The notes under the pieces: generated by a model
Databases searched by the model: none
Seen by the model: only the letters and a program-made list of their open reading frames with translations
Told to the model about the DNA's origin: nothing
Translations under genes and position numbers: made by a program
Virus record (IMG/VR): IMGVR_UViG_3300010233_000167
Location: 1,623-23,016 of that record
Source: a virus
Reading direction: 5' to 3' (one strand)
DNA: 21,394 nucleotides
Shown here: positions 2,918-20,886 of the stretch, in pieces
How the letters are laid out: every line of letters begins with the position of its first letter
Numbering within the stretch: position 1 is the stretch's first letter

Positions 2918-4732
2918 TTACTGTACTCCTGTAACAATCATGGTGGTGGGGTTCTTGGCTTTGCCGATGTGGTGGCCGGTGTTGCCGTGGGTGAGCGTTC
3001 CATCACCATTGGCGTAGTACGGCGCGCCAGGAGTCAAGCTAGTGAAGCCCGGGCACTCTCCGCCAGTCACGACGGTCAGCGGATCGCCGTTGCTCGCGCC
3101 CGCTGCGGTGAGGCCGATGGGACCGTTGGAGATGGCCCCGTAACCTACGATAGTCGCATTGACGTTATTTACGGGATCGGCAAACAACAAGAGCGCGTGG
3201 GTTGAATCTACGGGAAATACTGTCAGCCCCCATCCGGTCGGAACGGAAGCAAATGACGAAACATTTCCTGAAACGTCGAACTCAAAAAGTTGATTAGTTC
3301 CAGTCGCCGCAAGGGCCGTTGTTGCGTTAAATGGTATAGCACTTGTTACGAGGTTCGGAAATCCAACCCCAAAACCACTCAACCCATAGCTTAACGGCCC
3401 AACCGGAAGTGGCGTTAGATTAGTTGGACCAGTTGGATTGCCCAACGAATATGAGTATACCGCCGGATAGGAGCCATAGAAAAAGAAGCCGACGTGACTA
3501 CTATCAAAAGTCACACTAAATTGCGGAAGAAAGAATGAACCGAAAATAACTTGATCCAAAGGACCAATTTGAATGGGACCGGCCACTGAAGGCCCGCAAC
3601 CCCCAGCAATTTTAATTGGTGATCCGCCCCACGCCACTACTGTGCCAGCAATCGTACCGCCGCCAATAGTCACAGCGCCAAGACTATTGGACTTGTCGAC
3701 AAACGATACAGCAAATTCAGTGGATGATAGAATCTTAACCTGCGAAACAAAATAACCAATGGCGCTTGCTGCCGGCGTTCCAAGAGTAGTGACCGTTCCA
3801 ACAATAGCGCCAGCACATGCAGTCATAGCATGTGAATTGCCAGCATCGGAGAACACTGCGAGAAATGAGGTCGAAGTGATCTTGGCGATGGTTTGGTAAA
3901 GCGGGTAAGGAGCCGATGTTGCCGCACCCCCAAGCACGACGCCCGTTCCGGCAGCTGGTGTCGTCCCCGATACTGAGATTGCGACGACGGACAAGTTGTT
4001 TGAGCCGTCAACATAGAGCGCGGCGACAAGCGTGGAAGATAGCGCAACGGCTTGCAGCCATGCGGTCGAATCTGGAAAGGAAATTGAGTTGATTGCGCTG
4101 AATGCGTTTCCAGAAACCGTCATCACTTCGATGTTGCCAGAATATAGCACCATCAGAGTCGAGCCATCCAATGCAACCGCAGCTTCCGGTGCGATCAGAC
4201 CAGCATCAGATGTATTGGGGGTTCCAATAGTGATTGGTGGGTTGGAAGCCGTGTCGATGGTTCCTGCCACAGCCGAAGCGTAGGGGGCAAACTCATTGCC
4301 GGGAACGAAAGCGACAAAGTGATCGGCATCCAATTTCAGCGCTACTGGAGGATTCCCGCTGCTTGAGTCGGCGGCCCCAGGAAGCAATGTAATGACGTTT
4401 TCTAGGTCCAGCGCAGGCCCCCACGTCTGCACGCCATTGCCCGACCCATCATTCGCCATAGAGACGACGGTTCCGGCCGCAACAGCGCTTCCAGCGGTCA
4501 GGGTAGTGGTGATGGAAGAGCCGCCACCACCACTTGGCAGATTAGTTAGTTGTGAACCATCGACAGCAGGAAGTTTTGCCGACCCATCAAGTTGAACGAC
4601 ATCATTAGCCGCTGTACCCACATTCTTAGTGGAAGCGGTACCTAGAGCATTAACAGCAGTGATAACTGGGTTAAGTGAAAGAGTTCTGACATCAGAACCG
4701 AGTTCACCGTCTGTAATAGTGGGAATAGACAT
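2918..4732 (-). CDS. Tail fibre / adhesin with repeated beta-blade segments and a phage fibre C-terminal module
   Basis: A 604-residue protein. The N-terminus (about 1-75) has tail-fibre style sequence including LPAVDGSQLTNLPSGGGG, a flexible Gly linker. The centre contains several diverged segments of the form SST-x-F/L-x-V/A-x-F/Y-x-D-x-x-N-x-x-x-x-x-x-x-x-x-G-x-x-x-GT (for example around LVAALYVDGSNNLSVV and FAVSFVDKSNSLGAVT). This suggests a beta-propeller or similar blade fold that could bind a surface glycan. The C-terminus (PGFTSLTPGAPYYANGDGTL, then HHIGKAKNPTTMIVT) matches a module common at phage fibre ends. The stop lies within the upstream region of the holin gene. GGAG in the end of the 49-aa gene serves as ribosome site. 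DNA from about 2940 to 4480 is clearly GC-richer than its surroundings, pointing to recent module exchange. Confidence 0.75.
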   Translation of the reverse strand: MSIPTITDGELGSDVRTLSLNPVITAVNALGTASTKNVGTAANDVVQLDGSAKLPAVDGSQLTNLPSGGGGSSITTTLTAGSAVAAGTVVSMANDGSGNGVQTWGPALDLENVITLLPGAADSSSGNPPVALKLDADHFVAFVPGNEFAPYASAVAGTIDTASNPPITIGTPNTSDAGLIAPEAAVALDGSTLMVLYSGNIEVMTVSGNAFSAINSISFPDSTAWLQAVALSSTLVAALYVDGSNNLSVVAISVSGTTPAAGTGVVLGGAATSAPYPLYQTIAKITSTSFLAVFSDAGNSHAMTACAGAIVGTVTTLGTPAASAIGYFVSQVKILSSTEFAVSFVDKSNSLGAVTIGGGTIAGTVVAWGGSPIKIAGGCGPSVAGPIQIGPLDQVIFGSFFLPQFSVTFDSSHVGFFFYGSYPAVYSYSLGNPTGPTNLTPLPVGPLSYGLSGFGVGFPNLVTSAIPFNATTALAATGTNQLFEFDVSGNVSSFASVPTGWGLTVFPVDSTHALLLFADPVNNVNATIVGYGAISNGPIGLTAAGASNGDPLTVVTGGECPGFTSLTPGAPYYANGDGTLTHGNTGHHIGKAKNPTTMIVTGVQ

Positions 4733-5148: not shown

Positions 5149-8100
5149 TTAGGCGTGTCCGCGAGTTGTTGGGGTGGCAGCGATAAAAGCATCTAGTTCG
5201 GTAAAGTCGGTCATTGTCATGGCATTTGTAATTGTAGTTGTTCCAGTTTCGACAAGTCCAGTATTACCTCCCCGATCAACTATTCCGCAGACTGTGCTAT
5301 CAGTTATGTGTGTATTAGTTGAACTTTCAACTACAAGATTACCCCCAGCATTACCCTCCGATGTAATACCTTGAACAAATACATTGTCGAATGTAAAATT
5401 CGTCGGACTACCAATTGTCATAGTACTATTAAATAGGCCTGCGAGTGCCCAACTGTCCTTAACCAAGAAGTTCGAACCGCCGGTTGCAGAGAAGATACTT
5501 TGTTTGGACAGCCCAGAAACAGTCTGCTGAAAGCCACTATTCTTAATTGTCCAATTTTCACAAAGTTGTGTGATTCCACCAAGTTGATAATCGTCAAATT
5601 GCATTGCGTCCGGATGGTCTCCGTCTCCGTAGTACTGACGAAGAACAAGTAGACCATCGTACGTAACATTCTGACCGCCTAGGGAGAAGTTGGCGTCCAC
5701 ACCAATATTGTCTTCAGTGATATTCTTGAATGTGAATGTTGCAGTGGATGGGGCGGACAGATTAAGAAGGACACACGTTCCGCATCCCCAGAAATCTGGT
5801 TTAGTAGCGTCTCCTTGACCATTAAAAGTAATTGCACCGGTAAAGATATCATTGATGTGAATACCGGTTCCGTTCGGAGAGCCAAGAGCTTGTCCGCCAT
5901 TAACAATGATGTTATTAAACGTTAGATTACACGGGATTGCGGGATTACCGATAATCTCAATCCGGCTACCAGCACCACTAGAAGTGATGGTCATATTTTC
6001 AAAAGTAAAACCACCAGAACCTGAAAATCCGAGAGTTGAAGCTGTTGTAACTCCTGGTGTTAGTTGACCAGAGATTACAACCGGATTAGACGTGAAGTCG
6101 TAATTATCAACATTAATATCGCCAAGAGCACTCGCGGGAAATTGATAAGCTTTACCTCCGGCAAGAGTTGGACCAGTATTAAGGATTGCAACCATTGCGG
6201 CCCAGTCGGCAACCGGGATGAACGAGCTATTCGTCACAGTTACACCGTTAGACGGCTCAGTTGCATTTGTTACGATATTGGTTGCAGTTACATCGCATGT
6301 AAGCACATGGCTAAGATCGCCCATTACGGGTGTGTATGTATCTGTAGTTGCACCTCCGATTGGTGAACCATCCAAGTTCCATTGATATGTGAATGTCATT
6401 GGTAATGTACCGCTCCATGAGCCTGTGGAAGAAGTTGAAGGCTCTCCAACAATTGCCTGATTAACAAAAGGTGCTGCGAGATTTACAGGTCCAGTCGGTG
6501 CGGGTGGCGCAGGTGGCACATATCCGGACGGTGGAATGTAGTAAAGATGATTGTAAACAACACCCTTATTCAATCGGCCAGTTGGGGACGAAAAGAAATT
6601 TAGTCGAAGTAAAGGCGGATCAGCCCCGTTAACTATCCGCCCAGTGAACGCCGGGTCGAGGTGGAAAATAGGCTGGTCGGCCGCAACCATGTCTTGGTTG
6701 GAAATCCCTGACCACCAGAAGGCGTTGGTAGTGGCGTCAAACACCCCAATGTCAAATCCGAAGGTGTTAAGGGGAAAGTTGGTAAAGTCCACTAATGCGG
6801 GCCGGAGCATCGAGGCCGTGACTACGCGGGGGTTGCTAATAGTGGACCCGTAGGAGGTGTAGGCGTCGTCCCAGTTCTGCTCGTCAATCACTTGGAGGAT
6901 GCTCGGGGCAGCGGTTCCGTTCCAGCCGATCTTCACAAAGATGCGGCGGGTGTCGCTGTAGTCCGGTGTGCCGGTAGTCACCTTGAACACATTGAACAGC
7001 GCCCAGCGGGAAGCGTACTCGTTCTCCTCATAGTACCCATCGAGGTCGAGGTACTTGTTCGTCCAACTCATCGTGCCATCGATCAGGAACGCGGCCGCAC
7101 TGGGGTCATCAGTCGGCACGAACCCTGCGGTCATGTAGTTGGCGGCCAACGGGTAGGTCTGGGTGGCCAATGTATTCACGTCCACGGTCGTTACATTAAC
7201 CGTGTTGCCCACAGTCTGATCGTCCCCGAAGTCGGTTGAGTATGTACAAGTCACAAGTTGGAGGGCGGTGTGGCCGTCGTTGAAGGTGGCAAACACTCGC
7301 CCCGAGTGGTGGGAGTTATCGAAATCGACCACACCCGATAGGGCCGCGTTGGGGCCATCCGTCGGACCCCACGGAGTGATATCCACAGCCTGGACCACAC
7401 CACCCCCATCCACATAGCAAACACCGAGGTAGAAGACGCTGCGGGAGTCGAAGGCAAGGTCGGACGGAGCGGTGACTACAAAGACGGCCCCCGCGTTGCC
7501 GACGCTTGTGGTTGAGTTGGAGAAAACTGTGTCGAAGTACTCCGGCGGCGGCCCGTCAACGAACGGAATGTTCGCGGATGAGGTAGGGGTTAGGATGTCA
7601 GCGGCGATTTCACCGGGGGTGTTCTCGCGGGGGATAAGGTTGAAGATGATGTGGTCTAGTTCGCTCCCGCTGGAGAGCACGAAGACGTTGGCGTCGTTGA
7701 TGCCCACAGCTTGCACATTGTCCTGCGGATCGGCCCCGACTTCGACATACGGAGAGATTGCCTGGGCGTAGTCATCGGCCCGGCGAAGGACGTAGATGCG
7801 GGCCGTGGACATGTTGACCCACACATCGCCGGAGCGCGGGTCGTTGAGGGTGGGGTAGGCCGCGCCGGAAGCCGTGAACTCCGTAGTGCTGGTAACAAAC
7901 CGCCGCCAAGTCCCGTCGTTCCCGTCGTTGGACCCATCGGGGATGCCCGCCGGAACGGTCTGCGCCGAGCTGTAGGAGTTGTAGAACGTCACAACGCCAG
8001 TATCCACATTCTTACGCACAGTGTAGAAGGGCAAGTAGGGAAAGTCGGAATAGGTGTCCCCGGGCACTATGGTGTCTCCGCCGAGGGAAACGCCACACCA

Positions 8101-11361: not shown

Positions 11362-12803
11362 GGTTCGATCCCGTACTTAGTCATCTGAGCTTCGATGTAC
11401 GCCTTTTTCTTGTTGAATGACTTGATTTGATCGTTTGTCATGTTCTTGTACATTTGTTCTCGTTGCTGAGGTGTCATGTACATCTCTTGGAAGATACGGG
11501 GATCAGCCACCGGCTTGAACTGGTTCACAACGGACTGGTAGTTCTCCGGGGTACCTCCACGCTTGGTCCAATCTTGCTGTACGGCATGCTCTAGTTGAAG
11601 CATCTTTTCATTACCAAGTAGCATCGCCCCCACTTGCTTGTTAGCTTCTGGGCTGTATTCATTGTTTGGATTCATCAGACGAGACATCTGAGTTTGTTCG
11701 TCCGTTGGTGCCATGCCAATAGCAGCTCGTTGTTGGGCAGCGAGTTGTTCACTGATCTTGCTGAATACCTGTTGACTTGGAGTGGCTGTGGGACTGTAGT
11801 TAGTACCGAGTATACGATTAGCCTCTGTTACCCACCCAGACCACTTGGATGCCCCAGGACCCGATTTAAAGTCTCCTTGAGCGGCGAGCATTTCGTGCAG
11901 AAGAGTCTCTCGTGCAACCGATCCGTTGTACGCAGTGTTGACAGCATTGTACTGATCCGTGGAAGTCTTAGCGGAGGATTCCTGTGCTTCGGCTGCACCG
12001 GGAACGGCTTGTGTGGCAATAGGACCAGTCGGAGCAGCACCAATAGATACTGATCCAGGTTGGTTATTCGGTAAGAGTGTTGGTGTTCGTTGTAGGAGCG
12101 TATCCGGAGTTGGACCACGCTTAAGAACCCCAGCAGATCCTTGAGCAACTTCAGCAGTACCAGAGTACGGATTTACAACGCTTGCTACAGTACGATCTCC
12201 GAGTTGCCTTTCTTCGATCTTTCCTGTCATGGCTGTTTGAGCACCTTCACCACCTTGACCAGAAATTACAGCAGCTCCTGACGCCCCGGCCCTGCCAAGG
12301 TTCCCACCACCGATGTACGTAGCAGCCATTTCTGGAGGAGCTAGACCAGCAGCAACAGCTCGTTGAATAGCCTGTGCAGAAGCTTTCTGGCCAATAGCAT
12401 CCCAAGTGGACGGATCAGCCGTTGGATTAGCTTTTTGAGCTGCTGTGGAAGCCGAGGTGTACGCATCCGCATCGATGTTTTGGATGTTCTGAAACTGCGA
12501 TTTAGCTAGATTTTGCTGAGCTTGTACGGCACCAATTCCCGCAGTACGAACAGCTTGCATGTCCTTCAAAATATCAGGAGCGTACGGAGCAGTCCGGGGG
12601 TCTTGTTGAAGCATCGAACTAAACTTATCTGGATCAGGTTGGCCATTAGGACCCAGTGACTGAGACAAATAATTACCGGCAAGCGACTTAGCTTGGAACA
12701 TCTTATTTTCATTGAAAGCATTCTGTACAGTTGCAAGCGTACCAATCGTCTGAAGAGGATTAACTACTTTTGCAGCGACGTCAGTTGTTTCAAACCCCGC
12801 CAT
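11358..12803 (-). CDS. Ejection / internal virion protein, gp20-position (481 aa)
   Basis: I start it at ATG 12803-12801 because GGAG is 9 bases upstream; a TTG at 12818 would add 5 residues. The sequence is rich in Ala, Gln, Asn and Pro with long predicted helices (for example LLHEMLAAQGDFKSGPGASK and QREQMYKNMTNDQIKSFNKK). There is no enzyme motif and no true membrane span. A middle stretch of Gly/Ala/Pro (about 165-275) looks like flexible linker. Composition and position between the 236-aa and 810-aa proteins match the P22 gp7-gp20-gp16 ejection series, so it is most likely released into the host with the DNA. It overlaps both neighbours by a few bases. Direct homology to gp20 cannot be shown by eye. 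Confidence 0.65.
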   Translation of the reverse strand: MAGFETTDVAAKVVNPLQTIGTLATVQNAFNENKMFQAKSLAGNYLSQSLGPNGQPDPDKFSSMLQQDPRTAPYAPDILKDMQAVRTAGIGAVQAQQNLAKSQFQNIQNIDADAYTSASTAAQKANPTADPSTWDAIGQKASAQAIQRAVAAGLAPPEMAATYIGGGNLGRAGASGAAVISGQGGEGAQTAMTGKIEERQLGDRTVASVVNPYSGTAEVAQGSAGVLKRGPTPDTLLQRTPTLLPNNQPGSVSIGAAPTGPIATQAVPGAAEAQESSAKTSTDQYNAVNTAYNGSVARETLLHEMLAAQGDFKSGPGASKWSGWVTEANRILGTNYSPTATPSQQVFSKISEQLAAQQRAAIGMAPTDEQTQMSRLMNPNNEYSPEANKQVGAMLLGNEKMLQLEHAVQQDWTKRGGTPENYQSVVNQFKPVADPRIFQEMYMTPQQREQMYKNMTNDQIKSFNKKKAYIEAQMTKYGIEP

Positions 12804-13115: not shown

Positions 13116-13826
13116 TCAATACGGAATTTCTATGGCAACATCACCATAACCCTGCCCATAAGAGAGCAGGGCATTAATTGTTGTAGTACCTCCGCCACCC
13201 CCGTAAATTCCACCAGCAGCATTCTGATTAAGGAAAGCATTAGTGTACAAACCTTGCGAGATATTTCCCGTAGCTCCCGTGATACCCGCAGCCGCCGCAT
13301 TTCCTCCACCAACGATTGCTTGACCAGCATTGGATGCGGCTTGAGTTCCGTAGTTACCGGTTTGAGCAGCGGCGTTCTCCCCCAGATTAGCTTGTCCTTG
13401 TAGTTTAGCGAGATTAGTATTGTACGAGTTTAGGGCGTTACTGAACTGATTTTGATACGTTGTGTCAGCTAACCCCGAAGCATAAGATGCAGCCCCCTTC
13501 AGGGCAGCTCCGGAAGTACCAAGACCTTGTGCTGCGTAGCTGTTCTGAGTAGCCTTGAGACCTTGGGATAGATTGAACTGATAACCGGGGGTGGCTTCTA
13601 GTTGTGCCTGTGTCGGTGCAAAACTAAATGGCGACATCGCTGAGATTTGTTGATTAGCCGCTTGCCCTGTTAGGTTGTACGGATTTAAGTCGCCTCTGGT
13701 TGTATTGTACATCTGTTCTTGCAAGTTGGCGGCATGATTAGCAGCACCAGTTTGCATACCTGAAGCAGCAATAGAACCAACAGCCCCAATTGCAGATGCC
13801 CCGACAATAGCTGCGCCAAGTCCCAT
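13116..13826 (-). CDS. DNA transfer / ejection protein, gp7-position
   Basis: A 236-residue Ala/Gly/Asn/Gln-rich protein. The N-terminus (GLGAAIVGASAIGAVGSIAA) is a weakly hydrophobic helix. The middle holds a pattern seen in many phage DNA-transfer proteins: NPYNLTGQAANQQ, then TPGYQFNLSQGLKATQNSYA, GLGTSGAALKGAASYASGLA and YQNQFSNALNSYN. The end is a long low-complexity Gly/Ala tail. It is the first of the ejection series and corresponds to P22 gp7 by position. It probably travels into the cell with the genome and associates with the inner membrane. ATG 13826-13824 lies 4 bases after the stop of the upstream gene. Confidence 0.75.
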   Translation of the reverse strand: MGLGAAIVGASAIGAVGSIAASGMQTGAANHAANLQEQMYNTTRGDLNPYNLTGQAANQQISAMSPFSFAPTQAQLEATPGYQFNLSQGLKATQNSYAAQGLGTSGAALKGAASYASGLADTTYQNQFSNALNSYNTNLAKLQGQANLGENAAAQTGNYGTQAASNAGQAIVGGGNAAAAGITGATGNISQGLYTNAFLNQNAAGGIYGGGGGTTTINALLSYGQGYGDVAIEIPY

Positions 13827-13830
13827 ATCT

Positions 13831-14916
13831 TTAAATTGCCTTTTTCAAGTCTAAACGGTAGAGATTGCCAACAGGCTCAGCACCGATACGCTCATAGATC
13901 ACACCAAGTCGATCACCATCACCCCGTGTACCTGTTTGCATAAACACTTCGTCCACACCGCCAAGTTGAAGAGACGCATTGGCCGCTCGTTGCAGTTTAA
14001 GACCAAGACCAGGGAATGTTGGGTCAGCATAGAACGTTGAGTGAGTAGCAGAGGTAATGGCTGTATCAACAAGGGACGGGGCGATAAGGGTCATAAGATA
14101 ACCAAACATACGACCATTAGACCGAGCGACCATGACTTGAAGTAAACCATTATCATCAAGATACTTCATCAATCCGAGGTTCTTTCGTTTCCATTGATCA
14201 ATCGGTTCACCGACCTCAGTGCAATGTTGTTCGAACAGTTGTTGGCCATCCCGCACAAAGACATCGAAGGATTCTCGTTGGATTGTAACCCCGTCAGGAG
14301 GAATGACTTTATTACGTTTGAGAGCTAGTTGTGTCTTAACTTTATTTGTTGCCTGTTGAGCAAGTTTAACGAGAGATTCTTTGTACGCAGTTGCATATCG
14401 GACCATAGCAAAGAAATCGATTTGAATGTTCTTGTCTTTTAAGTTGTTGTAATGCTCCTCATCAAACGGTTGGTTTAGGCAAAACTCAAAGACTTGTTTG
14501 CACGTCTCTTTTCTGTTTAAGTCGTCAAAGGTGACTGTGAGTACGTTCGGAAGTCGCTTAGTCAGTTGGCCGAGCTTGTGATCAAGATACGTCATACCTC
14601 TTGTGAGCGTTACCTCATCAAAAACTCCAGGACAAAGGGTCATCAAAGACTTAACAACCTCATTGACCGGACGACGAACACAAACCACTTTACAATCAGG
14701 TACGAGTACAGGGATTAATCTCCACCAAGGGGCCGCAGCAGTTTCAACAGTACCGACTTGTGGTTGGGTGAACCAAGTCTTGATGTCCTTTAAGGTCTTC
14801 ATTCGTTGAAGTTCTTCGTGACCACAAATCCAGCCGTTGTACGTAAGAAACTTGCTGAGCCAGGCAGTACGTGATCTTGGAAGACCGAGGATTAGAAATG
14901 GACAAGAATTCGTCAT
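13831..14916 (-). CDS. Sulfotransferase-like / GNAT acetyltransferase-like two-domain protein
   Basis: A 361-residue protein. Residues 7-23 (FLILGLPRSRTAWLSKF) form a P-loop-like 5'-phosphosulfate-binding motif. Residues 77-91 (VVCVRRPVNEVVKSL) match the 3'-phosphate-binding Arg...Ser motif of PAPS sulfotransferases. After a helical middle, residues about 240-358 look like a GNAT fold: QVMVARSNGRMFGYLM (beta strands), FYADPTFPGLGLKLQRAANA (acetyl-CoA loop region, degenerate relative to the usual Q/R-x-x-G-x-G/A), and YERIGAEPVGNLYRLDL at the end. It lies between small virion-type proteins and the ejection genes, in the slot of P22 gp14. The target is unknown: a virion protein, host envelope molecule or small molecule are all possible. 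The start overlaps the preceding stop as ATGA. Confidence 0.72.
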   Translation of the reverse strand: MTNSCPFLILGLPRSRTAWLSKFLTYNGWICGHEELQRMKTLKDIKTWFTQPQVGTVETAAAPWWRLIPVLVPDCKVVCVRRPVNEVVKSLMTLCPGVFDEVTLTRGMTYLDHKLGQLTKRLPNVLTVTFDDLNRKETCKQVFEFCLNQPFDEEHYNNLKDKNIQIDFFAMVRYATAYKESLVKLAQQATNKVKTQLALKRNKVIPPDGVTIQRESFDVFVRDGQQLFEQHCTEVGEPIDQWKRKNLGLMKYLDDNGLLQVMVARSNGRMFGYLMTLIAPSLVDTAITSATHSTFYADPTFPGLGLKLQRAANASLQLGGVDEVFMQTGTRGDGDRLGVIYERIGAEPVGNLYRLDLKKAI

Positions 14917-15693: not shown

Positions 15694-17658
15694 TTAGTTT
15701 AATACAATTTGTGGATCAATATAGAAGGTGGAGCTTGGAAGAGCGGCTTTTAGATAGGTGTATAAGTAACCGACGAGCTGTGGTGTAGGACTTGTGAGTG
15801 GCACAGTCATTTTAAATCGCCACCCCGCCTGCCATTTAGCCCCGTTATCTGTTACTGATCCACCATCCACAGCACTTGCAAAAGCAGCTGGAGGACTACC
15901 ATTGGTGCTTGTACCCGATTGAGTGCATATAAATACTCGACCGTAACCATCGACACTTGTTCCTGAGATGATAGCTCCAACAGTATAGGCGTGGTTACTT
16001 ATCCAGGCCGATGCTGCGCTATCCCATGCACTTGTATCTGCGGTCCAATTTGAACTTGCTGCTAAAATGTTAGATCGTGTTCCAGAACCTATTGAACCCA
16101 ATGGGCTTGAGGTTGATCCAAAATATTCTGTGTCATGCCAAATTTGTATATTGGTTGGCAACGCCGCACCAAACCATATTCCATAAACATTAACATTTAC
16201 AGTTGCACCTGTTTTAGAATTATATAGCCATGACCCAGGACAGGTAAATGGTACAGTCCAACCGACATTTGCGGTAGTTGTAATTTGCCAACTTATCGGT
16301 GTTGTGCCAGCTACAGCACCACCATTCCTGACAACTGTAGTGCTAGGAACATGCGAGCCATTCCAAGTGTAAGATCGCTGGTCGTAAGTTACGCCAGAAC
16401 TTCCAGAAGATATAAATTTGTATGTAGAAGCTAAACTTGTCGTACTGCCAAAATATGTAAGTGCTGAATTAAATTTACAATCAACAAATTGAGCGTTCCA
16501 ATTATTATTGCCAGGATTTAAAAGTGTGCCGGTTATAGCACTAAAATCCACACCTTCAAATAAGCCAACTCCACCATAAGTTGCATTAAAAGCAAATAAC
16601 GTTGTTGGAATTGTTGCACCTTGAATAGCAGATACTGTATTTCGCCAAATGGTTTTTCCGGCTGCTAACAGAATACCATCCGCCGTAGCTCCAAATTGCA
16701 TAGTTGTATTGTTTAGTTCAATATAAGATGAAACATTGCCTAAAGTAATAGCATTTCCAACTCCTGTTGTTCCAGCTTTTACTAAAGCACACGAATCTAA
16801 ACGAACTATATTATCGCCAGCATTATTAATAGTTAGAACGACATTTGTTGCACCAGAACCAGCCGAAAGAGTTATACCATACATATACCAAGGCGCATTG
16901 AAAGCGCCTGTTACAGTTAGAGCATTTGCTCCTGTAGTCGTTATCGACGCTCCAGTTAATAAATTAGCAGATGTAGGTGGCAAATTTGCGGTATGATCTA
17001 CAGATATAAATTGTGACCACACTGGAACAGTTATGGTTTCAGCAGCAGCTTGAGTTTCAGCATGGTCATTACCAAGATAGCCAATAGAGTTAACTGCAAC
17101 CGTTCCACTGGGCATCCATGTTGAAGCCACCGCGCTTTGCAACCTAGCAAACGGAGCTTTCCAATATTGAAAACCACTGGCCAGCCCTAAGCTAGTCCAC
17201 TTTACCGTTGCACCATCACTTGTTACAACACCAGCAGTTGCACTAAATACTGGCGAAGAACCACTAATTGTACCGGCAGTTGTACAAATTTGCAATGACG
17301 CCGAAGTTGTATCATAAATAACTAAGCCAGTTGTTACGGCTGTTGAAGACGCATGTTGCTGCGTCCAAGTTAGAGCGTTTGTTAAATCACCATTAGTTGC
17401 CGGATTGCCAGTACATTCATACCAAGTTACGGTTCCGTCAGTTGTAGCACCATAACGAGTAATTGCCCAAGTTGGTTCGCCAACATTATTGGTTGTTCCA
17501 GCTACTCCGCAAACAAACACACGCTCGCTGCCAACAGCAGGCGTAGCAAGTTGTCGAACTAATTGTCCGCAGGTATAACCATGATTCTGTATCCAAGCAC
17601 TTACGGCTGTCCATTGAGTGCTGTCGGTGTACCAAACGGAAACATTGAGATTAGCCAT
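15694..17658 (-). CDS. Tail fibre with three carbohydrate-binding-like modules around a beta-helical centre
   Basis: A 654-residue protein. Residues about 16-84 contain AWIQNHGYTCGQLVRQ, ERVFVCGVAGTTNNVGEPTW and TTDGTVTWYECTG. This Trp-Tyr-Gly-Val ... Cys ... GT ... DGT-x-x-W module is common in phage fibres and resembles chitin/cellulose-binding modules. A shorter, diverged copy follows at about 97-158 (GLVIYDTTSASLQICTTAGT, SDGATVKWTSLG). A third lies near the C-terminus at about 545-611 (AWISNHAYTVGAIISG, GRVFICTQSGTS, TDNGAKWQAG). Between them, about 185-440, are Asn/Thr/Gly-rich short strands typical of a parallel beta-helix. It is probably a receptor-binding fibre. Its ATG overlaps the collagen-like gene's stop (TAATG), so translation is coupled. 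The central DNA is visibly AT-rich. Confidence 0.78.
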   Translation of the reverse strand: MANLNVSVWYTDSTQWTAVSAWIQNHGYTCGQLVRQLATPAVGSERVFVCGVAGTTNNVGEPTWAITRYGATTDGTVTWYECTGNPATNGDLTNALTWTQQHASSTAVTTGLVIYDTTSASLQICTTAGTISGSSPVFSATAGVVTSDGATVKWTSLGLASGFQYWKAPFARLQSAVASTWMPSGTVAVNSIGYLGNDHAETQAAAETITVPVWSQFISVDHTANLPPTSANLLTGASITTTGANALTVTGAFNAPWYMYGITLSAGSGATNVVLTINNAGDNIVRLDSCALVKAGTTGVGNAITLGNVSSYIELNNTTMQFGATADGILLAAGKTIWRNTVSAIQGATIPTTLFAFNATYGGVGLFEGVDFSAITGTLLNPGNNNWNAQFVDCKFNSALTYFGSTTSLASTYKFISSGSSGVTYDQRSYTWNGSHVPSTTVVRNGGAVAGTTPISWQITTTANVGWTVPFTCPGSWLYNSKTGATVNVNVYGIWFGAALPTNIQIWHDTEYFGSTSSPLGSIGSGTRSNILAASSNWTADTSAWDSAASAWISNHAYTVGAIISGTSVDGYGRVFICTQSGTSTNGSPPAAFASAVDGGSVTDNGAKWQAGWRFKMTVPLTSPTPQLVGYLYTYLKAALPSSTFYIDPQIVLN

Positions 17659-18176
17659 TAAAGAAAGAACACTGCAAAACCAGCAGACCCTTGTGGGCCT
17701 TGGATTGGAAATGTATCTTGGCCGTCCTCGCCGTCTTGTCCAGGAAGACCTAATCCGGCTAGACCCTGTGGTCCCATCGCGCCAGTAGCACCCGTCGGAC
17801 CTGTTGGACCAACTGAGCCCGTTGATCCCGGTGGACCTGGAATTGTCAGACCATCTTCCCCGTCTTCACCGTCCCACCCTGTCGGACCAATAAATCCTTG
17901 AATACCGGGAGAACCTTTTGGGCCAATTACTTGGGTAGTATTAAAAGATAACGGTAGGCTTAGCTGATCTTGTTGTGTCTGCTGGAGGTCCGGCTTAGAA
18001 TCAGATAAGGCCTCAAGGATAGCGAGATCATCGGAACTAACACCATTCGCCCCACCTGTTCTATTCCACAGTTGAGCAAGTAAGTAGAACCATTCTGATG
18101 TGATATTCCCTTGTTCATCAACAAGTTTTGATGATACTTTCGGAAAACCCTGTTGAGTTGTACTACCTACTGGCAT
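17658..18176 (-). CDS. Collagen-like fibre protein in the tail-needle (gp26) position
   Basis: A 172-residue protein. The N-terminal 80 residues carry a phage-tail motif (SEWFYLLAQLWNRTGGANG) and a helical Gln-rich segment. Residues 85-166 are Gly-X-Y repeats (for example GPKGSPGIQGFIGPTG and GPTGPTGATGAMGPQG) with three short breaks, ending in a hydrophobic FAVFFL tail. Collagen repeats form a trimeric rod. In P22-type genomes the gene after gp10 encodes the trimeric gp26 needle that plugs the tail, so this may be the functional counterpart; a side fibre is the alternative. Asp-Gly-Glu triplets make several repeats strongly acidic. ATG 18176-18174 is preceded by the duplicated leader element and its short upstream ORF. 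Confidence 0.85.
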   Translation of the reverse strand: MPVGSTTQQGFPKVSSKLVDEQGNITSEWFYLLAQLWNRTGGANGVSSDDLAILEALSDSKPDLQQTQQDQLSLPLSFNTTQVIGPKGSPGIQGFIGPTGWDGEDGEDGLTIPGPPGSTGSVGPTGPTGATGAMGPQGLAGLGLPGQDGEDGQDTFPIQGPQGSAGFAVFFL

Positions 18177-18214
18177 TTTGCACCCAGACGGGCTAAAGTC
18201 ACTCCGCGATGCAT
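18167..18214 (-). CDS. Leader ORF B: 15-codon upstream ORF before the collagen-like gene
   Basis: ATG 18214-18212 begins one base after the stop of the gp10-like gene. It encodes MHRGVTLARLGAKCQ and ends at TAG 18169-18167, four bases past the ATG codon of the collagen-like gene. A weak GCGGA lies 8 bases upstream; reinitiation after gp10 is also possible. The peptide shares HRGxTLA with leader ORF A at 2630-2680, and in both cases the stop falls just beyond the downstream start codon. Translation is plausible but unproven. Confidence 0.5.
   Translation of the reverse strand: MHRGVTLARLGAKCQ
18181..18211 (-). repeat. Duplicated translational leader element, copy B
   Basis: These 31 bases match 2645-2674 with 28 of 30 aligned identities plus one extra base (18189). 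GCCC (18193-18190) can pair with GGGT (18185-18182) around a 4-base loop. GGGTG then lies four bases before the collagen-like ATG, exactly the spacing of copy A. Both copies fill nearly all the gap between two genes. Confidence 0.75.
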
Positions 18215-18215
18215 C

Positions 18216-19703
18216 TTATGTTTCCGCCGGTTCTGCCCACACATCACCACCATTAAGCGCGGTGAAAGCGGGTACTGACCAAAAGACTTCAAATACTCTA
18301 TTACGAGCTTGACCTAGTTGTGGGAACATAATTGACCGATTGAATTCGCCGGTTGATCCGAGACCATACACACGAGGATTTCCCCAGGTCTTACCACGAT
18401 TATCGCTGTACCGAAGAGAGATTTGTGGTTCATTTGATGTAAGTGTGTTTTGAATTTCACCTACATCCATGTCCAGGACAAGACGACTAAACTCAACTCT
18501 ACGGTTATTGACTTGAATACCGGGCCAACCGCGTCGACGAACAATAGGTTGACCATTATCTGTATAGTTATTTAGGTTCCACTGATAAAGTGCCCCAGTT
18601 TCCCAATCGCCCACTACAATAGTTCCATAAGCAGGCGCACAAGTGTTTGGACGAATACGGTTTTCCTGACCACTATTGTCTGTCCAAGTTCGTTCATGCC
18701 AGAGATTTTCAGCGATGTCGAATACCCATGTTGCATTGGCAGTCGGGAAAATTAATACGTAAAACGTATGACCAAGTTGCTGATAGGTAAATCCGATGGC
18801 ATCGCTGATTGTAGCGTACGAAGAGATTTTCTGTTCAATGGCGTGCGTAGAGATACGATGGGCCGTGTATTGATTACCGTTAAGAACAATAGTTTGCCCT
18901 TGACGGTCTTTACTTAACCAGTAAATTGAGAGGTCTTGACGACAAATCGAATAGGGGGCAACACAACCATGTTCGATAAATACACCGGGAAGTTCAGCAA
19001 AAGAAAACTGGGGGTTGCCCGCATCGTACCACACTTCAGTAGTTTCAGTACCAATTAACCACGCTTCTCGGTGCATGGCTATTACACCAACGACATTATC
19101 TGGATTGCCGACTTTAGCCGCAATGTCTAATGGATCAAAAGCCGCAGCAGTAGTGTCGGGGGAAACTGTACCAGTTAGATTTTCAAAAGTTACATTGGAA
19201 AGAGAGATGTACCATTGATTGGTATTGGGTCGATTTAACAGAAAGAACGTGTCAATACAATCGACCCTATTTCCTCCGTAAAATGCCCCATCTTGTCCGG
19301 AGATTGTAGCGAAAGAATTATCCGACATCTTGATGCACCAACCGTTTGCTGATCCATCCACAATGAGGATTGCTAGGCTGTTATCCGACATCGATACGAT
19401 ACCACTATCGGAGTCAATAGTACCGAGAAGAGTACGAGACCAACCTGAAGTAGTTGCGTAGACTTTATTGCCGATTACTTCGTAAAAGTTACCATTAGTT
19501 GCTGTGTACGCACATCTATGTTCAAAACCTGTTCCGGCAATTAGTTGTGTAAGACCGGGAGTCAGTTGATGTGTAACGGGGAAGGGGCTGTCTTCAGGGT
19601 TCTTTTCTGGGTATAGGTTAACGCAACGTTGGGCGGAAGCAATGACTGACCTAGCCTCATACATACCTCCAACTAGCGGAAGTTTTACAGGACTAGTAAC
19701 CAT
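18216..19703 (-). CDS. Tail hub / packaged DNA stabilisation protein, P22 gp10-like
   Basis: A 495-residue protein from ATG 19703-19701, which overlaps the gp4-like gene by 11 bases; a TTG at 19736 would add 11 unrelated residues. The N-terminal signature EARSVIASAQRCVNLYPEKN, followed by PVTHQLTPGLTQLIAG, is characteristic of the P22 gp10 family. Later segments such as GYIDSD-like beta repeats and VWFDIAENLWHERTW-type text (here WVFDIAENLWHERTW) fit the beta-propeller-like hub. It joins the gp4-like adaptor at the base of the portal and closes the tail after packaging. P22 gp10 is of similar size (472 residues). Confidence 0.9.
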   Translation of the reverse strand: MVTSPVKLPLVGGMYEARSVIASAQRCVNLYPEKNPEDSPFPVTHQLTPGLTQLIAGTGFEHRCAYTATNGNFYEVIGNKVYATTSGWSRTLLGTIDSDSGIVSMSDNSLAILIVDGSANGWCIKMSDNSFATISGQDGAFYGGNRVDCIDTFFLLNRPNTNQWYISLSNVTFENLTGTVSPDTTAAAFDPLDIAAKVGNPDNVVGVIAMHREAWLIGTETTEVWYDAGNPQFSFAELPGVFIEHGCVAPYSICRQDLSIYWLSKDRQGQTIVLNGNQYTAHRISTHAIEQKISSYATISDAIGFTYQQLGHTFYVLIFPTANATWVFDIAENLWHERTWTDNSGQENRIRPNTCAPAYGTIVVGDWETGALYQWNLNNYTDNGQPIVRRRGWPGIQVNNRRVEFSRLVLDMDVGEIQNTLTSNEPQISLRYSDNRGKTWGNPRVYGLGSTGEFNRSIMFPQLGQARNRVFEVFWSVPAFTALNGGDVWAEPAET

Positions 19704-20418
19704 CGCTGTACACGTTGTACGAACGCTGAGCACCAATTACTGCTGGTGGCATTTTGGACGTTGGAGTTTGAACGTTAGCCCCACGAATAACATTGAGAGC
19801 ATCTTTAGCAAGAGCAATCATCGCCGGATCGGCTGGCATACGGTAGGCGACCCTAAGACGAACCATAAGATTGTAAAGAAGAGCCGCTTCGTACTCAGGG
19901 GGAAGATTGATAACCTGAGTAAGAGATGTGAACTGAGTAATCTGGTGTTTAACCAAAATGTGTAACTCATACAAATTGGCATTAGGCACAGGCCATGCGT
20001 AAATTGTACCGTTGGGCCAGTTGCTGTCGTAAAAGATAATGCTGGGCCAAGTACCCATTGTCTTTAGACGAATACGATTGTAATCTTCATGTGAGGGCAA
20101 CAGTTGAAGGGGATAGTCGATTTGCTCAACACCCGCTTGGGCTCGTTGCCTCAGGAAGTTACCATCTTCAAGGCGATCTGGGCGAGGTGTGTCGAAGTCG
20201 CCCCCAGGACCAATAGAATAGGTTTCAGCCCCCGTGGTCACAACGGAAACGTCAGTCAGATTGTAAATCATCCAACGCTTACGGTTCCACTGAGCAGTGA
20301 TATAATTCAACCGTTTAAATGCATTGTTAATGTCTTCAGCTTGGGCGATCTGACCTTGACCAAGGATACCCGAGTCAATCAATGCTAGAACAAGAAGATC
20401 ATTAACGGTTGATGTCAA
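19693..20418 (-). CDS. Tail accessory factor / head completion protein, P22 gp4-like
   Basis: A 241-residue protein. The N-terminal helix pair (VNDLLVLALIDSGILGQGQI, then EDINNAFKRLNYITAQWNRK) and the segment around TYSIGPGGDFDTPRPDRLED match the gp4 family of ring-forming adaptors. These bind below the portal and start tail assembly. It is longer than P22 gp4 (166 residues), with the extra length in the C-terminal half. The start is TTG 20418-20416, six bases after the upstream stop; no in-frame ATG lies close to the conserved N-terminus. It overlaps the gp10-like gene, in line with coupled synthesis of the two hub proteins. Confidence 0.88.
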   Translation of the reverse strand: MTSTVNDLLVLALIDSGILGQGQIAQAEDINNAFKRLNYITAQWNRKRWMIYNLTDVSVVTTGAETYSIGPGGDFDTPRPDRLEDGNFLRQRAQAGVEQIDYPLQLLPSHEDYNRIRLKTMGTWPSIIFYDSNWPNGTIYAWPVPNANLYELHILVKHQITQFTSLTQVINLPPEYEAALLYNLMVRLRVAYRMPADPAMIALAKDALNVIRGANVQTPTSKMPPAVIGAQRSYNVYSDGY

Positions 20419-20424
20419 GATGTT

Positions 20425-20886
20425 TTACTCGAATGGATTAAGTGTTGGATCAAAACCGGCTTCTTCAATAGCTTTAGTCAGTTTAGCCGGTCCCCAACGT
20501 TTATCAACTTTTACTTGCTTTACTTGTGCGACTGCAAGAAGACGAACACGTTCAACTTCATCGTCAATAACTTCTTCACCACCAAGAACCTGAGCCTCTT
20601 CACTAGCACTGTTAACGACGACATAGTGCTTAGGTTTATCGGGGTTATTATATACGTGTTTTGGGTACTCTTGGTATTGCGAAATTGCACTGTCTCCGTT
20701 GCTGCCGTCAGACCAATCCCAACGGCTTCTGTTAATTCGTGAGAGTGCTGAGTTCTGTTTAACTGTCACTCGACTATTGTTTGATCGTCCGATCCCATGA
20801 CCACCTGAAGTTTGATGACCATTAGATCGAACCGAGCTTTTGGTACCACGGGCACCTTTAACAGTTGAGTCCTCAGACACTCTCAC
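20425..20886 (-). CDS. Coat-proximal protein of unknown function (153 aa)
   Basis: The start is GTG 20886 (or GTG 20880); no ATG occurs in the reading frame. The first 75 residues are basic, Ser/Asn/Gly-rich and low in complexity. The middle segment EYPKHVYNNPDKPKHYVVVN with SASEEAQVLGGEE resembles a small conserved motif (YPK-x-hydrophobic-Y ... P ... VNSAEEE) found in short phage proteins encoded next to coat genes. The C-terminal KRWGPAKLTKAIEEAGFDPT is a predicted helix. It lies between the coat protein and gp4-like genes, so a head or joining role is likely. The disordered basic N-terminus could contact DNA; this is inference. Confidence 0.75.
   Translation of the reverse strand: MRVSEDSTVKGARGTKSSVRSNGHQTSGGHGIGRSNNSRVTVKQNSALSRINRSRWDWSDGSNGDSAISQYQEYPKHVYNNPDKPKHYVVVNSASEEAQVLGGEEVIDDEVERVRLLAVAQVKQVKVDKRWGPAKLTKAIEEAGFDPTLNPFE

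Follow-up and report, generated by a model that had tools for sequence, protein, structure and literature searches.

A predicted Shine-Dalgarno-pairing hairpin is present in two copies at stop/start junctions of the late operon of an uncultivated phage

Hairpins that sequester the Shine-Dalgarno (SD) sequence are known from translational coupling in polycistronic operons, and palindromic elements of the REP/REPIN type are present in multiple copies in bacterial genomes. The nearest published parallel to the element described here is provided by the Start-Associated Sequences (SAS) and Extended SAS (ESAS) of Cluster K mycobacteriophages (Pope et al. 2011, PMC3203893; PMC12699233). SAS is a repeated short element located directly before the start codons of several unrelated genes per phage, and its function is unproven; ESAS is an imperfect 17-bp inverted repeat with a 4–13 nt spacer, which is variably present before homologous genes. 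Each genome contains several to many copies, most of them outside the structural genes (PMC3203893, PMC12699233).

The element was found in a virus record of 30,933 bases that does not cover the whole genome. The source is an uncultivated phage that encodes a P22-like portal and, for head closure, a gp10-like protein. We analyzed a 21,394-base stretch of this record (the window, to which coordinates refer unless stated otherwise). The late genes are on the minus strand, and two nearly identical stretches of ~45 bases occur in the late operon on that strand, where the earlier note had placed them. Copy A (2638–2682, minus; CTATGAGTCATCGCGGAGCGACCTTAGCCC-TCTGGGTGACAAGTG in minus-strand reading) extends from the stop region of a small holin-like membrane gene (2677–2937, minus), which was assigned by its position and its homologs in relatives L023–L028 and has no PHROG match, to the GTG of the endolysin (phage lysozyme) gene (2113–2640, minus; PF00959, phrog_7). 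Copy B (18174–18219, minus; ATAAGATGCATCGCGGAGTGACTTTAGCCCGTCTGGGTGCAAAATG) extends from the stop codon region of the gp10-like head closure (Hc3) gene (18216–19736, minus; phrog_578, E 2.5e-103) to the ATG of a collagen-like virion gene (17658–18176, minus; Pfam PF01391), whose N-terminus is conserved in relatives. The domain assignments agree with the earlier proposal that copy B precedes a structural gene and copy A a lysis gene. In a MAFFT alignment (A1), which together with model matches defined both stretches, 36 of 46 columns were identical with one 1-nt indel, and the similarity continued beyond this indel (TCTGGGTG) and ended at the start codons; the exact ends of the element are inferred. 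Among the listed late-gene start regions this pair had the best local score (46, the runner-up pair having 22), and the core pattern had no match in 100 shuffled sequences.

Like SAS/ESAS, the element is repeated, adjacent to start codons and built as an inverted repeat. However, its sequence is unrelated: the 13-bp motif GGGATAGGAGCCC (up to two deviations) was not found above chance, with a single 2-mismatch match at 3464 (chance expectation 0.35) and none at copy A or B. In addition, the arms of 17 bp contrast with 11 pairs and an 11-nt loop here, the several to many copies with two in 30.9 kb that are confined to the late operon, and the SD is located inside the helix. Coupling hairpins are similar if the prediction holds, in that the downstream SD is hidden, the upstream stop is at the 5' foot and an overlapping short frame could open the structure, whereas here one and the same hairpin occurs twice, at junctions that are unrelated, with an evident gain relative to related phages. 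REP/REPIN elements are likewise short imperfect palindromes between co-transcribed genes, but the present element occurs only twice, in a phage, and a multi-copy match in a host was not found.

Both copies have a GGGTG sequence separated by 4 nt from the start codon, which is GTG in A and ATG in B; the identical spacing proposed earlier was thus confirmed. This sequence (2645–2649 in copy A, where it reads GGGTG(A), and 18181–18185 in copy B, both minus) is located in the hairpin 3' arm, is able to pair with the 16S tail, and is a plausible, well-spaced SD in both cases. Each copy also contains a short leader frame that starts at the upstream stop and finishes just inside the downstream gene. 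In copy A, this frame (2630–2680, minus; MSHRGATLALWVTSVH, 16 codons) forms an ATGA overlap with the holin stop and has its own stop just inside the endolysin gene; in copy B (18167–18214, minus; MHRGVTLARLGAKCQ, 15 codons and a stop, exactly the interval given in the earlier note), the stop overlaps the start of the collagen-like gene. We compared initiation regions (45 nt upstream to 30 nt downstream) of 19 late genes, for some of which the start codon is uncertain and is simply the first in frame. Copies A and B were the two most stable (-21.2 and -16.7 kcal/mol), and copy A had both the least accessible ribosome-binding site (0.12) and the strongest anti-SD duplex.

A hairpin was predicted in each copy. 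In copy A (2643–2676, minus), it consists of an outer helix in the GUCAUC/GGUGAC region, an inner helix CGGAG/CUCUG and the loop CGACCUUAGCC, with pair probabilities of 0.91–1.0. In copy B (18179–18213, minus; columns 7–41 of the alignment), the outer helix in the UGCAUC/GGUGCA region had pair probabilities of 0.81–1.0 and the inner helix only ~0.42, with the loop UGACUUUAGCC. The helix of columns 7–12/36–41 formed with high probability in both copies. The GCCC/GGGT stem suggested earlier can be drawn, but it is part of the minimum-energy fold of neither copy; instead, GGGUG is predicted to pair with an upstream CAUC (as CAUC/GGUG). Accordingly, the predicted probability of being unpaired was at most 0.06 across GGGTG(A) in copy A and 0.57, 0.04, 0.01, 0.00 and 0.00 along GGGTG in copy B, such that GGUG is unpaired with a probability of ~0 in both.

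The two outermost pairs of the helix differ between the copies on both sides with Watson-Crick pairing retained: pair 7–41 is G-C in A and U-A in B, and pair 8–40 is U-A in A and G-C in B. Shifting the partner by 1–3 columns reduced the paired cells from 100% to 29–52%, and double compensation of this kind arose in 0.7% (Watson-Crick) to 2.3% (with G-U) of trials in which the outer columns were random but all different. When the 3' letters were re-dealt between the two copies, the observed value was reached in 136 of 500 trials. As there are only two sequences, the covariation amounts to two base pairs. The folding energies were no better than those of shuffled sequences (z of -0.6 and +0.5), i.e., the stability is ordinary for the composition, and Rfam had no match in the window at gathering score. 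The two leader peptides are alike only as far as HRG[AV]TLA, and past the indel the frames diverge while the DNA still matches, as had been noticed before. Because of this similarity through a frame-shifting indel and the two doubly compensated pairs, the analysis supports an RNA sequence or structure, rather than a peptide, as the feature common to the copies. Thus, the earlier suggestion of a conserved RNA sequence and hairpin is retained in part, with a different pairing.

It is possible, with chances that we consider roughly even, that the element is a duplicated SD-sequestering start-site hairpin that gates translation of the endolysin and the collagen-like protein in dependence on upstream translation or a regulator. 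In this model, a start-site RNA hairpin would have been gained at two stop/start junctions of the late operon, and the downstream SD, carried in its 3' arm, would keep the downstream gene closed. The hairpin would then be opened by ribosomes that have translated either the upstream gene or the short leader frame beginning at the upstream stop, which would tie endolysin output to holin translation and the output of the collagen-like protein to that of gp10. Gating by upstream ribosomes fits the leader frames, the position of the SD and the predicted stability of the initiation regions. Translational repression, its relief by coupling and the descent of one copy from the other are inferred.

The same junctions were compared in relatives, as the earlier note had proposed. 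The element was absent from all six holin/endolysin junctions (L023–L028, endolysins 52–72% identical) and all 20 junctions between gp10 and the next gene (L003–L022, gp10 39–56% identical, several being near-duplicates of one another). In the former, the holin stop overlaps the endolysin start in every case; in the latter, stop and start overlap or are 0–5 nt apart, with one 18-nt exception, and a homolog of the collagen-like N-terminus could be recognized after gp10 in 15 of 20. Neither junction has room for the element in these relatives, which at 39–72% protein identity are too distant for single-base placement of edges. No closer relatives were found in a search with the 486-aa virion protein. 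As relatives have both gene pairs in collinear arrangement, a gain at each junction is the simplest history, and probably ~30–45 nt were added at each of the two in this lineage, judged from these comparisons. As related phages lack an insert at either place, the element looks like a recently acquired translation-control element. The first ATG in copy B and the ATGA overlap in copy A are placed where relatives start the downstream gene; thus, the leader frame may now begin at the former start, with the element supplying a new ribosome-binding site and start codon. In relative L017, GACGCAAATG is found where this phage has GATG[core]CAAAATG.

The genome is a mosaic, since its lysis and virion genes resemble different phage groups: the lysis genes (1542–2937) resemble one group of ~47-kb phages, whose gp10 is barely detectable, and the virion genes (15694–20886) resemble another group, which has no endolysin match. 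Several other features of the record were observed. A LAGLIDADG homing endonuclease domain is encoded within an intein-like insert of the P22-like portal gene (L031 2312–5449, minus; about 25211–28348 of record G000:C1). The gene for the ribonucleotide reductase large subunit is immediately followed by one for a recombination endonuclease VII (HNH-type; 869–1285, plus), and a 361-aa protein (13831–14916, minus) with a weak, below-cutoff sulfotransferase match is encoded inside the virion operon.

An alternative, which we regard as unlikely, is that a mobile or copy-prone DNA cassette of 30–31 bp (CATCGCGGAGYGACYTTAGCCC(G)TCTGGGTG) was inserted 4 nt before two start codons. The outer complementary bases would then represent the halves of palindromic target sites (GT^AC in copy A, TG^CA in copy B) and not RNA base pairs maintained by compensation. 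The absence of an insert at both junctions in relatives is consistent with a cassette, both insertions are within gene pairs that are collinear in relatives and are therefore not mosaic boundaries, and the L017 sequence is compatible with insertion into a palindromic site. However, beyond the outer pairs that differ, the copies are again alike (TA.GA before and AA after), which is unexpected of unrelated target sites. Moreover, further copies were not found beyond chance matches. An unfiltered model search of the complete record, of the kind advised in the earlier note, revealed no third copy. The presence of the element here and its absence in relatives fit the small inserted cassette considered there, but with two copies only and ends that could not be fixed, its mobility is hypothetical.

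Searches with five DNA patterns in IMG/VR, blastn against 50,697 phages, two patterns against 84,980 prokaryote species and models R1 and R2 over the sequences of relatives also did not yield a further member. The few matches that arose were set aside: 31 IMG/VR matches to CATCGCGGAGNGACNTT lack the 3' half, and two matches to a stem-only pattern have neither the loop nor a start codon at the right distance. Similarly, 34 single matches in prokaryote genomes are scattered over phyla and lack the full 3' half; one sequence among the prokaryote matches, L105, is followed downstream by AAACTGGGTGC but lacks the CATC arm. A look-alike in relative G010 (TCGCGGGGCGAC...TTTGGGTGATG), which neither model reported, was treated as coincidence, and a 2-mismatch match in relative G008 was at chance level according to reversed-pattern controls. 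As far as the collections searched go, from which records very close to this one may be missing, the similarity is confined to this isolate, an outcome that the earlier note had named as counting against its proposal.

Other repeats were also seen. A dispersed repeat, GCGGAGCGACTTTAGCCCCCTAATCGCGATCC, occurs in three species of Amycolatopsis (L107, L109, L111, L122) and has 18 bases in common with the element, most likely by coincidence. L051 (IMGVR_UViG_3300009500_000020) has three copies of GTTGCACCGCGTCGCGGGGCGACA (about 11428–11452, 13716–13743 and 13774–13801), two of them 58 nt apart, like a repeat-spacer-repeat unit. All four related phages of 47–48 kb (G008–G011) contain inverted repeats of the CGTTAGTGYTGCG type ~250–460 bases apart, e.g., at 6516–6542 and 6957–6983 of L049.

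The hairpin could also serve as an RNA operator that is recognized by a protein of the phage or the host, although we consider this improbable. Here, the loop YGACYUUAGCC (11 nt) would be a putative binding site, and binding would lock or free the SD of two late genes; a shared regulator that binds the RNA, as suggested earlier, is possible. The loop is conserved in both copies apart from two C/T changes (which are both of the simple substitutions in the core), both sites are on late genes, and the start-site position fits known operators. However, loop conservation between two copies may simply reflect recent duplication, the element is missing from all other late genes, and no candidate regulator was identified.

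Less probable still is that the copies are late promoters, used by an RNA polymerase of the phage or an alternative sigma factor. Both copies have the same strand and orientation ahead of two late genes, but there are just two in 30.9 kb, and the capsid, portal and other genes present are not preceded by one; in addition, neither a constant distance from the start codon nor a one-base indel in the core would be typical of a promoter. Patterns for sigma-70 promoters or terminators were not detected at either junction. We give still less weight to a conserved, attenuation-type leader peptide from the 15–16 codon frames. An ATG in the same frame, the common HRG[AV]TLA and the overlap of both stops with the downstream gene agree with it, but the frame shift after TLA within DNA that stays alike disfavors it, one of the two codon changes is non-silent, and the corresponding junctions of relatives are too short to encode such a peptide. 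Translational bypassing, as in byp elements or T4 gene 60, was rejected, as matching take-off and landing codons are lacking and the element has a start codon of its own.

We return to the SD-sequestering hairpin. A broader version of this model, which we think improbable, is that a self-contained ribosome-binding-site hairpin of ~30–45 bp is copied into stop/start junctions of phage operons, converting overlapping gene pairs into separately gated ones. If so, this mobile regulatory unit would be far smaller than any insertion sequence. If the hairpin works as proposed, the same translation gate would act on a lysis enzyme and a virion gene of one phage, and its gain relative to related phages would be recent enough to reveal how such gates spread between operon junctions. 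It would then offer a small, easily tested case of how a phage may tune stoichiometry inside a single late transcript.
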